Positions 40,246 through 45,921 of a stretch of 64,000 nt of DNA are shown here, piece by piece. The stretch lies in the NCBI RefSeq assembly GCF_000376445.1, contig NZ_AQXI01000001.1, positions 1,396,962 to 1,460,961 of the forward strand. Direction: 5' to 3'. A program made the translations under genes and the position numbers. Below the pieces are notes generated by a model. The model was given only the letters and a program-made list of their open reading frames with translations, made no database searches and was not told the DNA's origin. How positions within the stretch are numbered: the stretch's first letter is position 1; every line of letters starts with the position of its first letter. This DNA is from Haladaptatus paucihalophilus DX253 (GTDB taxonomy: Archaea > Halobacteriota > Halobacteria > Halobacteriales > Haladaptataceae).

Positions 40246-40707
40246 TTAGTCGTAGGATTGGTGTGCCCGGTTCAACATCCCCGCGGCGGGTTCGTCGTAG
40301 TCGTAGCCGGGAATCAGACCTTGCATCCACGTCCCCTCGGCGAAATCCACGACCGCCTTCGCGTTCTCGGCCGCTTTGTCGGGATACCCCGAGAACTCGA
40401 CTTCGAGGACTACTTCGTCGCCGTCTCGCCTTATCGTCGGTGGCGTCGCGTCGTCCGAGGAAACGACCGTGTGGGCGTCTTCCAGTCGGAGTTCGAGCGT
40501 TTCGAACCAACCGGTTTCAACGACGTCGGCGACCGAATCGTCCGCCACGACGCCCGAAAGCATCGGCATTCTGACGGTCACTCGGATGGAGTCGGATACG
40601 GTAACGCGTCCGTCGAACGGCGTCGTGGTCACGAGGTAGCCGTCGTCGTCCGATTCGAAGCCGTCGTGCAGGCCGAAGGCTCGTTCGACCGCGTTCGTCT
40701 GCGTCAT
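40246..40707 (-). CDS. Conserved haloarchaeal protein (DUF5813-like)
   Basis: 153 residues, acidic, with the AFGLHDGFESDDDGYLVTTTPFDGRV opening I associate with DUF5813. Unknown role. Same strand as and 33 bases downstream of the CHAT-protease gene, so it could be in that operon. Confidence 0.75.
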   Translation of the reverse strand: MTQTNAVERAFGLHDGFESDDDGYLVTTTPFDGRVTVSDSIRVTVRMPMLSGVVADDSVADVVETGWFETLELRLEDAHTVVSSDDATPPTIRRDGDEVVLEVEFSGYPDKAAENAKAVVDFAEGTWMQGLIPGYDYDEPAAGMLNRAHQSYD

Positions 40708-40740: not shown

Positions 40741-42852
40741 TTACGAGAAGTCGCGGCGGACATCGACGTCGGACGACCAGTACAGGTCGTGGTCGTAGAC
40801 GACCGCCGTATCTTCGAGTTTTAGGTATCGTTGCAACTCGTCCCCCGTGACAGTGAACGTCGGTAGGTCGCCACCCAATAGGTAGTACGACTCCTCGTCG
40901 TCGATGTACGGAAGGAGGAACGACCCCATCGAATGTTGGTTCGTCGGGTAGGTTCGAATGCCGAGCGCGTACTCGTCGTCGCCGAGCGGTTCGACCGAGA
41001 ACACGACCGGTGCGCTCTCCGATTGGACGACTTGGATGCTGCCGTCGCCGACGACGACGTACTGATTGCCGACGAGTCGCCGTCGGCGTGCGATGGAAAG
41101 CGCCGCCCGGAGCGGGAATCCGGCGTTGAGCAGTTTGGCGATGGTTTGGCCGATGACGGTGGCTCCGGCGTTGCCGATTTCGCTGTACGTGACGATGCCG
41201 CCGATGCTGCCCGCCTCGATGAGGCGTTTGCCGGGGACGTACGACCGACAGGCGTTCAGCAGAAACATATCGACGCCCACGGTCGCCACATCGTCGGGAT
41301 GGAGAAGTCCGTCGTGACAAACGAACGCCTCGTTTTCGACGTGGCCGATGTAGTGGAAGAAGTCGGTCGGTTCGCGGAGGTGTCGCCGAAGGTCCGCCGT
41401 CGAGCAGTTCCGGTCGATGGTCACGTCGAACGGCAGTTCGTCCCGGTGGTAGTACAGCGAATCGCGGTACTCCGCTTCCATCTTCGGGTCGTTACAGATG
41501 ATAGTGATCTGCGGGTCGTCCGTCGATCCATCGCGGTCCACGCGATGTTCGAACCCGGCATCGACGAGTTTGTTCCCGCCGACCGGTGCGCCGTCGCCGA
41601 GCCACGCGTGTTCGAGCGTTTCCGTCTTCGGCGGCACGACGTACCGCTCGTCGGGGGCGGGTTCCACGGGATACCTCCTGTCCACGTCTGTCGTCCGCGT
41701 GAACTCGCCGATATCTGCCGCCGTCGCGACCGGCTCGCTGAACGCTCCGTCAGTCGTCGCCACGCCGATTATCGGCAAGTCCCGAATGACGTACGGAAGT
41801 TGGGCCGCGTTCCGGTGGTCGTCCGTGGCCTGCACCGCGAGTCGCCACGTGGGAAGCACGTCATCGAGCAGCGAGAACGGCACGTCGAGGTACGCCAGCA
41901 GTCGGTCCGAAAGCGACGCATCGTAGAGGGCCGCGAAGTCGAGGTTGACGAAGGGTTCCACTTCCCGCCGTTCGTGTAAGTCGAAGCGATACAACCCCTC
42001 GGTACGGGTGAGACAGTCGAGCAACAGGGTCTGTTTGAGGACGCGGGCCGTTTCGCCTTCGAACCCGCGCTCCGGGTGGTCGAGGGCGTGGGAACCGCTG
42101 TCCGTGACGATTCGGGGGGAATCTCCGGGGACGACCGTCGCGCCGAGATAGTACGCGAGCGAGGCGACGGGAAAGACGAACTCGAACGCCGGCGGGACTT
42201 CGATGGTCACGCCCGTTTCCGGCGGTTGCAGGTCGTCCGGAACGTGGAGTTCGTCGCCGAACTCGACCGTCGGGGGGTGTCCGCGGAGCGTGGGGAACGA
42301 CCGCTCCGGACTGGTCGTCTTCAACGCCGACCCGAACGAGGAGATGGCCGCCATCACGTCCGCCGGGTCGCTCGTCGTCGTCACCGTCCCCGCCGGGCGG
42401 GTGTGGTCGGACCGAGCACCGATTTCGAGGGGGGATTCGTCGCCCAACGAGAGAGTCAACCGGTCGTCTCCAACCTCGAAGTCGAGCGCGGATTCCACGC
42501 GGAGATACGTCTTCACCGGCGTCGTCAGTTCGACGTAATATTCGTCGGACGGGAGCGTCACCTCCGTCTCGTGGTCGACCGTAGCGACCAGTTCGCCGGA
42601 CGTGTCGCGGACGAACGCGGAGACGAGGAACGGGAACTCGATTCGGTCCGTTCGGACGCGAGCCACCGCACTGACCGGCGCGGCGAACCCATCGACGGAG
42701 ACGGGACGGGGTTCCACACACTGTGACGTTTCGATAGCGTACTGACACCGTTCCAGCGGGTCGATGATGGAAACCCCGGGTCGGTCGTCCCGCGGTCGAA
42801 AAAGCGGCTCGACGCTTCGGCCGATGGTATTGGGGACGGGTACGTCACTCAT
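40741..42852 (-). CDS. CHAT-domain (caspase-like) protease
   Basis: 703 residues. The C-terminal third is a CHAT domain: the region around 485-560 has FHYIGHV with catalytic His likely H504 and LLNACRSY with Cys C535, in the order and spacing of CHAT/separase-type clan CD proteases. The N-terminal 450 residues are a large haloarchaeal module without recognised repeats; it may sense a partner. CHAT proteases are usually activated by a sensor encoded next to them; here a HalOD1 regulator sits 12 bases upstream on the same strand. Substrate unknown. Confidence 0.8.
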   Translation of the reverse strand: MSDVPVPNTIGRSVEPLFRPRDDRPGVSIIDPLERCQYAIETSQCVEPRPVSVDGFAAPVSAVARVRTDRIEFPFLVSAFVRDTSGELVATVDHETEVTLPSDEYYVELTTPVKTYLRVESALDFEVGDDRLTLSLGDESPLEIGARSDHTRPAGTVTTTSDPADVMAAISSFGSALKTTSPERSFPTLRGHPPTVEFGDELHVPDDLQPPETGVTIEVPPAFEFVFPVASLAYYLGATVVPGDSPRIVTDSGSHALDHPERGFEGETARVLKQTLLLDCLTRTEGLYRFDLHERREVEPFVNLDFAALYDASLSDRLLAYLDVPFSLLDDVLPTWRLAVQATDDHRNAAQLPYVIRDLPIIGVATTDGAFSEPVATAADIGEFTRTTDVDRRYPVEPAPDERYVVPPKTETLEHAWLGDGAPVGGNKLVDAGFEHRVDRDGSTDDPQITIICNDPKMEAEYRDSLYYHRDELPFDVTIDRNCSTADLRRHLREPTDFFHYIGHVENEAFVCHDGLLHPDDVATVGVDMFLLNACRSYVPGKRLIEAGSIGGIVTYSEIGNAGATVIGQTIAKLLNAGFPLRAALSIARRRRLVGNQYVVVGDGSIQVVQSESAPVVFSVEPLGDDEYALGIRTYPTNQHSMGSFLLPYIDDEESYYLLGGDLPTFTVTGDELQRYLKLEDTAVVYDHDLYWSSDVDVRRDFS

Positions 42853-42864
42853 TGGCGGATGACC

Positions 42865-43788
42865 TCAAACGTCGAACCACTCGGTCGTGTAGCTCGTCTC
42901 GCGGAGGTGCCAGCGCTGTTCCGGGCCGCTGTCCCCCGCACGGAGTTCGATTATCGCGTCGAACCGGTGTGCGATGGCGCGAACCTGCGGCGAATCGCGG
43001 TCGATGGGGAGGACGTAGTGGCCCATCCCGGAGACGTCCTTGATGCGGCGACAGAGGGTATCGAGGAACGCATCGACCTCGGCGTCGTCGTGGGTCTCCA
43101 CCAGCGGGCGGAGCGTATCGAAACAGAAGCGAAGTTCGGCCGGTGCGAACCCGCCGTGTTCCGCGTCGAGGCGTTCAATTGCGTCGACGATTTCGTCGCG
43201 GAACTCGTGTATATCGCCGTCCACGCGTTCGACGGTCGGGGTGGTCCGTACCGAAGATTCGGCGGCCGCGGACCGAGCGCCGGTGTGATAGTCCACGACG
43301 TGCGCGTCCGACCCGGCGGAACCGGCGCGAGAGAGACGAGTACGCGCCGTCGAGATGCTGCGGTCGTGGAGCGCGAAGAGCCGCGTTCGGTTGCGCGTCG
43401 AATCGCCGAGTAGCGGGACGCTGGCGGCGTCGACGACGGAATCCGGGACCGACCCGACGACGAGCAGATTCCCCCCGAGTCGCTTGATGCGTGCGAGACC
43501 CGGCTCGATGGTTATCGACCCGTCGCCGCGAACGGTTACGTGGTGGCCGTACAGAGAAAACGAGAGTCGCCCGCCGCGTCGCGGCGTGCCGTCGTCGCGT
43601 GACTTGAACAGTTTGTCGAGCGCCTCGGGGTCGATAACGTCGTAGAGTTGTTCGGGGATGTCCGCCGGTTCGACGCCTGCCACGTCCGCGACAGCCACCG
43701 TCACCGTCGTGCTGAGTGACTGCGGGCTGGAGAGGTCGTGTTGCACGCGGTACACACCGCGCTCGTCAGGGGAACCGTCCTCAGTCAT
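42865..43788 (-). CDS. HalOD1-output / RecA-like regulator
   Basis: 307 residues. Residues about 12-95 match the HalOD1 haloarchaeal output domain (YRVQHDLSSPQSLSTTVTVAVADVAGVEPADIP). Residues 105-300 look like the KaiC-like DUF7504-type domain lacking an intact Walker A (GGNLLVVGSVPDSVV). No receiver domain is visible. It is directly upstream of the CHAT protease and probably co-transcribed, so it may control protease activation. Confidence 0.78.
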   Translation of the reverse strand: MTEDGSPDERGVYRVQHDLSSPQSLSTTVTVAVADVAGVEPADIPEQLYDVIDPEALDKLFKSRDDGTPRRGGRLSFSLYGHHVTVRGDGSITIEPGLARIKRLGGNLLVVGSVPDSVVDAASVPLLGDSTRNRTRLFALHDRSISTARTRLSRAGSAGSDAHVVDYHTGARSAAAESSVRTTPTVERVDGDIHEFRDEIVDAIERLDAEHGGFAPAELRFCFDTLRPLVETHDDAEVDAFLDTLCRRIKDVSGMGHYVLPIDRDSPQVRAIAHRFDAIIELRAGDSGPEQRWHLRETSYTTEWFDV

Positions 43789-43965: not shown

Positions 43966-44826
43966 TCACCCCACCCATTCGTACGCGCGGGAGAACATCC
44001 ACGGAACAACGACGAGCAGGCCGCCGAGACACATCGCGAAGAGGGCCGCCATATCCCCGAGGGTCCACCGCTTCGAATCGCCGCCGGGCGGGGAGAGACG
44101 ACCGGCGTTCTCCGGCGTGCCCGAATCGGTCGTCGAACCGTTCGGGACGGCGCTCGTGCGCTCGGTCCCTCGGTCGGTTTCCGTCGTCCGCTCCCGCGTC
44201 GTCTCGGACTCGATAGCGGTCGCCGTTGCGGTCGTCGATGATGCCGATGTCGCGTCGGTCGGCGTCGTGGCTGGTACCGTAGTCGTCGTGGTCACTGGGG
44301 TCGTGGTCGTTGTCGTCGGAGTCGTCGTGGACGTGGAAGTCGTCGTGGTCGCGGTCGTGGAGGGCGGCGGCGTCGTGGTTGTCGTCGTAGTCGGCGTCGT
44401 TGTTGTGGTGGTCGTGGTGGTCGGTATCGTTGTTGTGGTGGTCGTGGTGGTCGGTATCGTTGTTGTGGTGGTTTGGGTGGTGGTCGTCGTTGCGGTTGTG
44501 GTCGTTGTGGTCGTGGTTGTTTGAGTAGTCGTCGTGGTTGTCGTCGGAATCGTCGTGGTCGTCTGGGTCGTCGTGGACGTCCCGGTGGTCGTGGTCGCGT
44601 TGGTCGTGGTGGCCGTCGTAGACGACGAGGTGGTCGTGTTGGTAGCGGTCGCCGTCGCGTTGGTCGTCGCGGCGAGCACGCCCGGAGCACCACCGCCGCG
44701 ACCGGCGGACGGGGTGACGTTCCCTGCGATGAGAAGTCCTGCAATGAGTAAGAGAGTGAGCACACGGGATACCGAGGTTCGCGTCTGGACCGGGAGCATG
44801 GGTCGCTGGTCATCGGTTCCCGTCAT
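43966..44826 (-). CDS. Thr-rich surface stalk protein
   Basis: 286 residues. An N-terminal hydrophobic segment about 20-37 could be a signal or anchor. Residues about 55-200 are almost entirely Thr, with scattered Ile, Pro, Gln, Ala and Ser, as in O-glycosylated mucin-like stalks of archaeal and fungal surface proteins. Residues about 258-280 are a C-terminal membrane helix, followed by a short basic tail. The coding DNA is a GT/GTGG-rich near-satellite tract. It lies just upstream of the HalOD1-CHAT genes on the same strand. Confidence 0.72.
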   Translation of the reverse strand: MTGTDDQRPMLPVQTRTSVSRVLTLLLIAGLLIAGNVTPSAGRGGGAPGVLAATTNATATATNTTTSSSTTATTTNATTTTGTSTTTQTTTTIPTTTTTTTQTTTTTTTTTATTTTTQTTTTTIPTTTTTTTTIPTTTTTTTTTPTTTTTTTPPPSTTATTTTSTSTTTPTTTTTTPVTTTTTVPATTPTDATSASSTTATATAIESETTRERTTETDRGTERTSAVPNGSTTDSGTPENAGRLSPPGGDSKRWTLGDMAALFAMCLGGLLVVVPWMFSRAYEWVG

Positions 44827-45433: not shown

Positions 45434-45551
45434 GAAGTTCCGACAGTTCGTTTTTTGGTGGGCCGTACGGTGGAAATCGTCGTTCAGTTCGGTGATGCGC
45501 CTCGGACAAACGTGTCTACTCGGTTGTCAAGTACAGCAGGCAGAATGCGAT

Positions 45552-45572
45552 GCGAGGGATGGGATTCGAACC
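45552..45572 (-). repeat. Copy of tRNA-Leu 3' end (attachment-like)
   Basis: gcgagggatgggattcgaac is identical to the first 20 bases of the tRNA gene at 45838 (its T-arm and acceptor). Likely remnant of site-specific integration. Confidence 0.7.
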
Positions 45573-45722
45573 ACGGCAAGACGTTCCTGCTCACTCGACA
45601 AGAGCAAGCTCTTGCCTGCTCTCGTTCACTTCGTTCACGAGAGCTCCGTTCCGCGGGCGTGCGTCTTGTCTACTTCGAATCCCAGAGCGCAGTCTCCGCT
45701 CACGAAGTGGTTCGCGGAGAAT

Positions 45723-45742
45723 GCGAGGGATGGGATTCGAAC
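45723..45742 (-). repeat. Copy of tRNA-Leu 3' end (attachment-like)
   Basis: Same 20 bases, 171 bases after the first copy and 115 bases before the intact tRNA gene. Confidence 0.7.
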
Positions 45743-45837
45743 AACGCCCGAGAACCTGCGCTTCGCGCAGAACCTCGGTCTAATTCGAACCTATTCAGCC
45801 GATTCGTACGGCGCGACGGACTGTCGCGCCGATTCAT

Positions 45838-45921
45838 GCGAGGGATGGGATTCGAACCCATGGACGTCTACACGAGCGGGTCTTAAGCCCGCCGCCGTTG
45901 GCCTAGCTTGGCAACCCTCGC
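45838..45921 (-). tRNA. tRNA-Leu (anticodon TAA)
   Basis: 84-base gene on the minus strand. Acceptor gcgaggg pairs with ccctcgc; D-arm, anticodon stem gcggg/cccgc with loop cttaaga (anticodon taa), a long variable arm as expected for leucine, and TTCGAAT in the T-loop. No intron. Its 3' end is duplicated twice to the left. Confidence 0.96.

Follow-up and report, generated by a model that had tools for sequence, protein, structure and literature searches.

Archaea have been thought to lack clear caspase homologues, and Haloferax volcanii shows high caspase-like activity that is inhibited by zVAD and for which the gene is not known (PMC3615174). In heterocyst-forming cyanobacteria, the putative CHAT protease HetF acts in development and cell division, and its active site is needed (PMC8406250). 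The architecture of HalOD1 joined to a KaiC domain that has diverged and may be inactivated has been on record since 2018 (PMC5847659).

Here, two adjacent genes of Haladaptatus paucihalophilus DX253 were analyzed. They lie in a stretch of 64,000 nucleotides, referred to as the window (contig NZ_AQXI01000001.1, positions 1,396,962 to 1,460,961), and encode P0001 and its neighbor P0002 (Table 1). A check of the open reading frames confirmed the coordinates, strand and lengths of the two genes, in agreement with an earlier, sequence-only reading of this DNA, and also the gap of 12 bases, which lies between the P0002 stop codon and the P0001 ATG. Both genes are on the minus strand, with the partner gene upstream.

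Table 1. Features of the locus, with positions counted from the first nucleotide of the window
Feature	Position	Strand	Support
P0001, CHAT-family protein, 703 aa	40741..42852	-	ORF; 10 full-length members in genome including P0001; relatives in 272/292 Halobacteria
P0002, HalOD1-DUF7504 partner, 307 aa	42865..43788	-	Pfam HalOD1 E 2e-24, DUF7504 E 1e-52; mirror-tree r 0.86
CHAT/caspase-fold domain of P0001 (predicted), residues ~430-640	40933..41565	-	hhalign 96.8; Foldseek 8tl0 E 4.8e-8
Predicted catalytic His504 codon of P0001 (HYIGHV)	41341..41343	-	Invariant 93/93; aligned on CHAT His
Predicted catalytic Cys535 codon of P0001 (LLNACRS)	41248..41250	-	Invariant 93/93; aligned on CHAT Cys
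N-terminal region of P0001, residues 1-429	41566..42852	-	Beta-rich start (17-147) and motif ERSFPTLRGHPP
HalOD1 domain of P0002, residues 23-96	43501..43722	-	Pfam PF18545
DUF7504 domain of P0002, residues 105-282, predicted inactivated KaiC/RecA fold	42943..43476	-	AlphaFold2 and Foldseek; Walker A 0/51
DUF5813 protein directly downstream of P0001, possible operon member	40246..40707	-	Pfam PF19130 E 1e-47; at this position in 4 Haladaptatus loci only

Two features of the surroundings were also recorded. Just upstream of the pair, positions 43966-44826 (minus strand) encode a protein of 286 residues whose start is signal-like, whose C-terminus is hydrophobic and which contains a long Thr-rich stretch; it is probably a mucin-like surface protein. 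Alongside the tRNA-Leu(taa) gene at 45837-45921 are two partial copies of its 3' end, 26 nt long and 96% identical to each other. The repeats occupy 45550-45575, 45721-45746 and 45836-45861, and from the sequence the partial copies look like the footprint of integrations at that tRNA gene.

The CHAT domain of P0001 and its predicted catalytic dyad

Pfam and NCBIfam assigned P0001 itself to no family, PF12770 (CHAT) did not match it, and PDB sequence searches with P0001 and with a profile of the ten family members returned nothing meaningful. When the predicted structure of P0001 was compared with the PDB using Foldseek, SAVED-CHAT (8tl0) came first, and separase, Craspase TPR-CHAT, gingipain and caspases were matched as well. 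Twenty of the 21 matches at E <= 1e-3 are related by name to CHAT, separase, gingipain or caspase; the title of the other one, 7x8a, is uninformative. Over the whole length of P0001 this model is poor (mean pLDDT 63.8, pTM 0.36); it is good in the C-terminal domain only, with a local pLDDT of about 85-90 around the dyad.

Residues 430-640 of 93 close relatives, drawn from the ten members in the genome and 80 loci, were then made into a profile and aligned by hhalign with one built from 17 Pfam-accepted archaeal CHAT domains (probability 96.8, E 2e-10). The GH of the family fell on the CHAT His (H504) and NAC on the CHAT Cys (C535), while a control with the N-terminal region 1-429 reached 0.2% against the CHAT profile. 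A search of the 4.3-Mb genome with PF12770 at E <= 1 gave four matches, every one in the P0001 family. These four paralogues scored 10.6-19.5 bits against a curated cut-off of 24, and a Pfam scan of the paralogues agreed. A more distant haloarchaeal member of the family (L146 = G018:C7) scored 28.1 bits. Since the fold search, the profile-profile alignment and a member above the Pfam cut-off point the same way, P0001 is taken to end in a CHAT domain with a predicted caspase fold. The CHAT-like His-Cys pair and the caspase fold put forward by the sequence-only reading were thus both recovered, and the fold carries its dyad, H504/C535.

No known domain was found by Pfam or NCBIfam in residues 1-429. 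The motif ERSFPTLRGHPP of this region (residues 183-194, window 42276-42305 region) is nearly invariant, as are residues 190-194 within it, and relatives outside Halobacteria have a weaker form.

H504 lies within DFFHYIGHV and C535 within MFLLNACRS. Eight residues, H500, G503, H504, C512, G515, N533, C535 and S537, are invariant in all 93 relatives. A Gly directly after the catalytic His is common in clan CD enzymes but not obligatory. It is not conserved here, where the residue following H504 is V, I, C, A or T. Since some Pfam-accepted archaeal CHAT domains likewise lack this Gly, its absence does not exclude CHAT membership. The dyad is kept in three of four distant relatives outside Halobacteria, the fourth (L117) being without both residues, and is lost in 7 of 31 haloarchaeal family genes from a broader sample. 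One haloarchaeal branch (L151-L157) consists of pseudo-CHAT proteins, in which the dyad is gone and the N-terminal region is still similar; to judge by their sequences, these proteins are probably inactive.

The missing Gly, the existence of dyad-less sister proteins and the loss of both residues in L117 would suit a caspase-fold scaffold without protease activity that is used in regulated assembly. The strict invariance of H504, C535 and the residues around them across 93 relatives argues against such a scaffold, which we consider highly improbable.

The partner and its coupling to the CHAT protein

The AlphaFold2 model of P0002 had a mean pLDDT of 87.6. In the Foldseek search, the KaiC C1 domain was the best match (E 1.7e-8), and the RecA-superfamily ATPase PH0284 was also matched. 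The phosphate-binding loop position reads GGNLLVVGSVPDSV, and a Walker A motif (GxxxxGK[ST]) was absent from all 51 partner copies. Among 42 partners scanned by Pfam, DUF7504 was found in all and HalOD1 in 17. The model and the sequence suggest that the DUF7504 domain of P0002 is a KaiC/RecA fold that has lost its nucleotide-binding loop, consistent with the earlier description of the neighbor as a HalOD1/RecA-like protein without an intact Walker A.

This genome contains 16 DUF7504 genes, and directly upstream of 7 of its 10 CHAT genes lies one of these, in the same orientation. Among the 80 nearest loci, 44 show the pairing. When the survey was widened to 31 CHAT-family genes from 14 other haloarchaeal genomes, only 1 had a DUF7504 gene next door. 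The pairing is real but is a property of certain branches, since it is so rare in the broader sample, and an adjacent partner is therefore no general requirement of the predicted protease. No DUF7504-CHAT fusions were seen, as no DUF7504 match coincided with a CHAT ORF among the ORFs at hand.

Where the two genes are paired, their histories agree. Protein distances of the CHAT proteins and their partners correlated across 51 pairs (mirror-tree r 0.86), and the seven paralogous pairs of this genome gave r 0.71 (Mantel p 0.006). The latter value is free of confounding by species history because all seven pairs are in one genome. The state of the partner changed 8 times on the tree compared to 46 in shuffles, using a 127-row FastTree phylogeny that has long branches and is uncertain in parts. 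The CHAT proteins with a HalOD1-DUF7504 partner formed one clade with full support (20 of 21 rows, the exception being a tandem copy), which spans Haladaptatus, Halocatena, Natronobiforma and Natronococcus. The coupling put forward by the sequence-only reading is thus matched by a pair that is co-conserved, both in its co-evolution and in its adjacency in several genera.

One explanation for these data is that the CHAT protein acts independently and that its DUF7504 neighbor is simply co-transcribed with it. The adjacency of only 1 in 31 in the broad sample and the large CHAT branches that have no DUF7504 neighbor are in keeping with mere operon neighbors. We find this very unlikely, however, given that adjacency is kept across several genera, that duplication inside one genome is matched, and that so few changes occurred on the tree.

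The strongest rival to regulation is that the partner is the substrate, such that cleavage of the HalOD1-DUF7504 protein by its CHAT neighbor releases or destroys a signaling output. Adjacency and co-evolution suit a partner that is a substrate or a scaffold equally well. P0002 also has a low-confidence loop or variable linker at 171-181 in an otherwise well-folded protein, which could serve, for example, as the cut region, and the gene neighbor of Craspase, Csx30, is its substrate (PMC10028731). A degenerate KaiC domain together with a signaling domain fits a regulator as well or better, however, and cleavage of the partner is in our judgment unlikely.

A conserved third gene was also sought as a candidate substrate. 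That search came up empty, as the DUF5813 gene is conserved downstream only within Haladaptatus. The other neighbors considered as substrates (a HalX response regulator, TrmB, IMP dehydrogenase, Lrp/AsnC and the Haloferax aminotransferase) look like unrelated flanking genes.

In another CHAT branch, a conserved upstream gene of about 200-270 aa replaces DUF7504 (L010:5381-6055 and 10 more loci, family f8). A Pfam scan of one of these genes gave no match. It is possible that they encode a second kind of partner.

Distribution and proposed role

The other nine full-length members in this genome are 33-50% identical to P0001. Across the Halobacteria sampled, relatives were present in 272 of 292 genomes, where the copy numbers are lower bounds. 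Outside the HalOD1-partner branch, the CHAT family usually stands alone. Each of 15 Haloferax genomes has one copy, and 11 named Haloferax loci share a common gene order with the partner. Some copies are on large plasmids, and two of these are annotated as 'caspase family' or 'CHAT domain-containing', the family being mostly annotated as hypothetical. The relatives outside Halobacteria (L117-L120) come from four genomes of one family in the same phylum. Close to them, and in the same order, are genes whose sequences suggest a DnaG primase, a GNAT acetyltransferase and a small protein resembling methyltransferases.

The sequence-only reading had hinted at cell death. In an abortive-infection scheme, phage or damage would cause the partner to free the protease and the cell would be killed. 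CHAT proteases do occur in bacterial defence systems (Craspase; PMC10028731), and a SAVED-CHAT protein is the best fold match of P0001. Against this, the family is near-universal, often single-copy and, in Haloferax, syntenic. Phage records and viral contigs contained no relatives of the family, PADLOC had no match for P0001, and none of the neighboring genes scanned was recognized as a defence gene. An anti-phage or suicide role is therefore disfavored, because of the wide distribution and the lack of phage, viral and defence-library matches, and we regard an abortive-infection effector as distinctly unlikely. The distribution pattern is that of a lineage-wide regulatory family and not of a defence island.

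With moderate confidence, we favor the reading that the pair is a CHAT cysteine endopeptidase with a dedicated regulator, serving regulatory or stress proteolysis in the living cell rather than phage-triggered suicide. Catalysis, physical interaction, the direction of regulation and the substrate are what we infer in the following scheme. The C-terminal CHAT domain of P0001 would probably cut one or a few specific proteins by means of H504 and C535. P0002 would bind the protease and either keep it off or switch it on, with the signal arriving through HalOD1 or the dead KaiC domain, and several such protease-partner pairs may operate in parallel in one genome. Securin-separase and Craspase are analogies to a protease controlled by a partner and not evidence for one here.

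A signal-controlled archaeal protease becomes a concrete and testable idea through this co-evolving, ATPase-dead KaiC-like partner directly upstream in one branch. It also provides the uncharacterized DUF7504/iKaiC and HalOD1 domains with a possible function that can be put to the test. Haloferax, with a single copy and its partner, is a tractable test bed. A broader suggestion, rather doubtful at present, is that these multi-copy, near-universal caspase-fold proteases form a signaling layer with dead KaiC-like switches, some with HalOD1, and are the source of the caspase-like activity in Haloferax.

Comparison with known systems

The sequence-only reading held that a haloarchaeal version with HalOD1 had not been described. 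In the literature on DUF7504, HetF-PatU3 and CHAT in haloarchaea, we found nothing that describes the pair and no paper that joins HalOD1-iKaiC with CHAT. The claim is too broad for the parts, as the HalOD1-iKaiC architecture was already published and a small number of homologues carry the NCBI names 'CHAT domain-containing' or 'caspase family'. The parts are known, and their combination is undescribed. P0002 has the architecture of the published HalOD1-iKaiC proteins, whereas their description makes no link to a protease gene (PMC5847659). The disk-determining factor DdfA of Haloferax volcanii is, like P0002, a HalOD1-containing regulator, and the NCBIfam DdfA model scored 67.4 bits on P0002 against a cut-off of 70, in a match confined to the HalOD1 part (67 residues). 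DdfA has been linked to cell shape, together with RdfA and Sph3 (PMC10869688), and not to a CHAT protein.

A caspase-fold family in more than nine-tenths of the sampled haloarchaea, with ten copies here, contrasts with the presumed absence of such proteins from archaea. It supplies candidate genes for the long-standing question of the source of haloarchaeal caspase-like activity. The single copy in each of the 15 Haloferax genomes is a candidate for that activity, H. volcanii by name having been checked for DUF7504 only; another enzyme, for example the proteasome, could also explain it.

HetF shows that a CHAT protein can act in development and division (PMC8406250). It differs in having TPRs and a transmembrane segment and in interacting with FtsI, and no KaiC-like or HalOD1 partner has been described for it. 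The CHAT family PF12770, including SAVED-CHAT and the TPR-CHAT/Csx29 of Craspase, shares with P0001 the caspase fold, the placement of the His-Cys dyad and an activation that presumably depends on a partner or ligand (PMC10028731). In contrast to these proteins, the P0001 family is without TPR, SAVED or CRISPR context, has another N-terminal region and falls mostly below the Pfam cut-off. It is chromosomal, apart from the plasmid copies noted above, and near-universal in Halobacteria, and would therefore be a case of CHAT proteases beyond CRISPR and defence.
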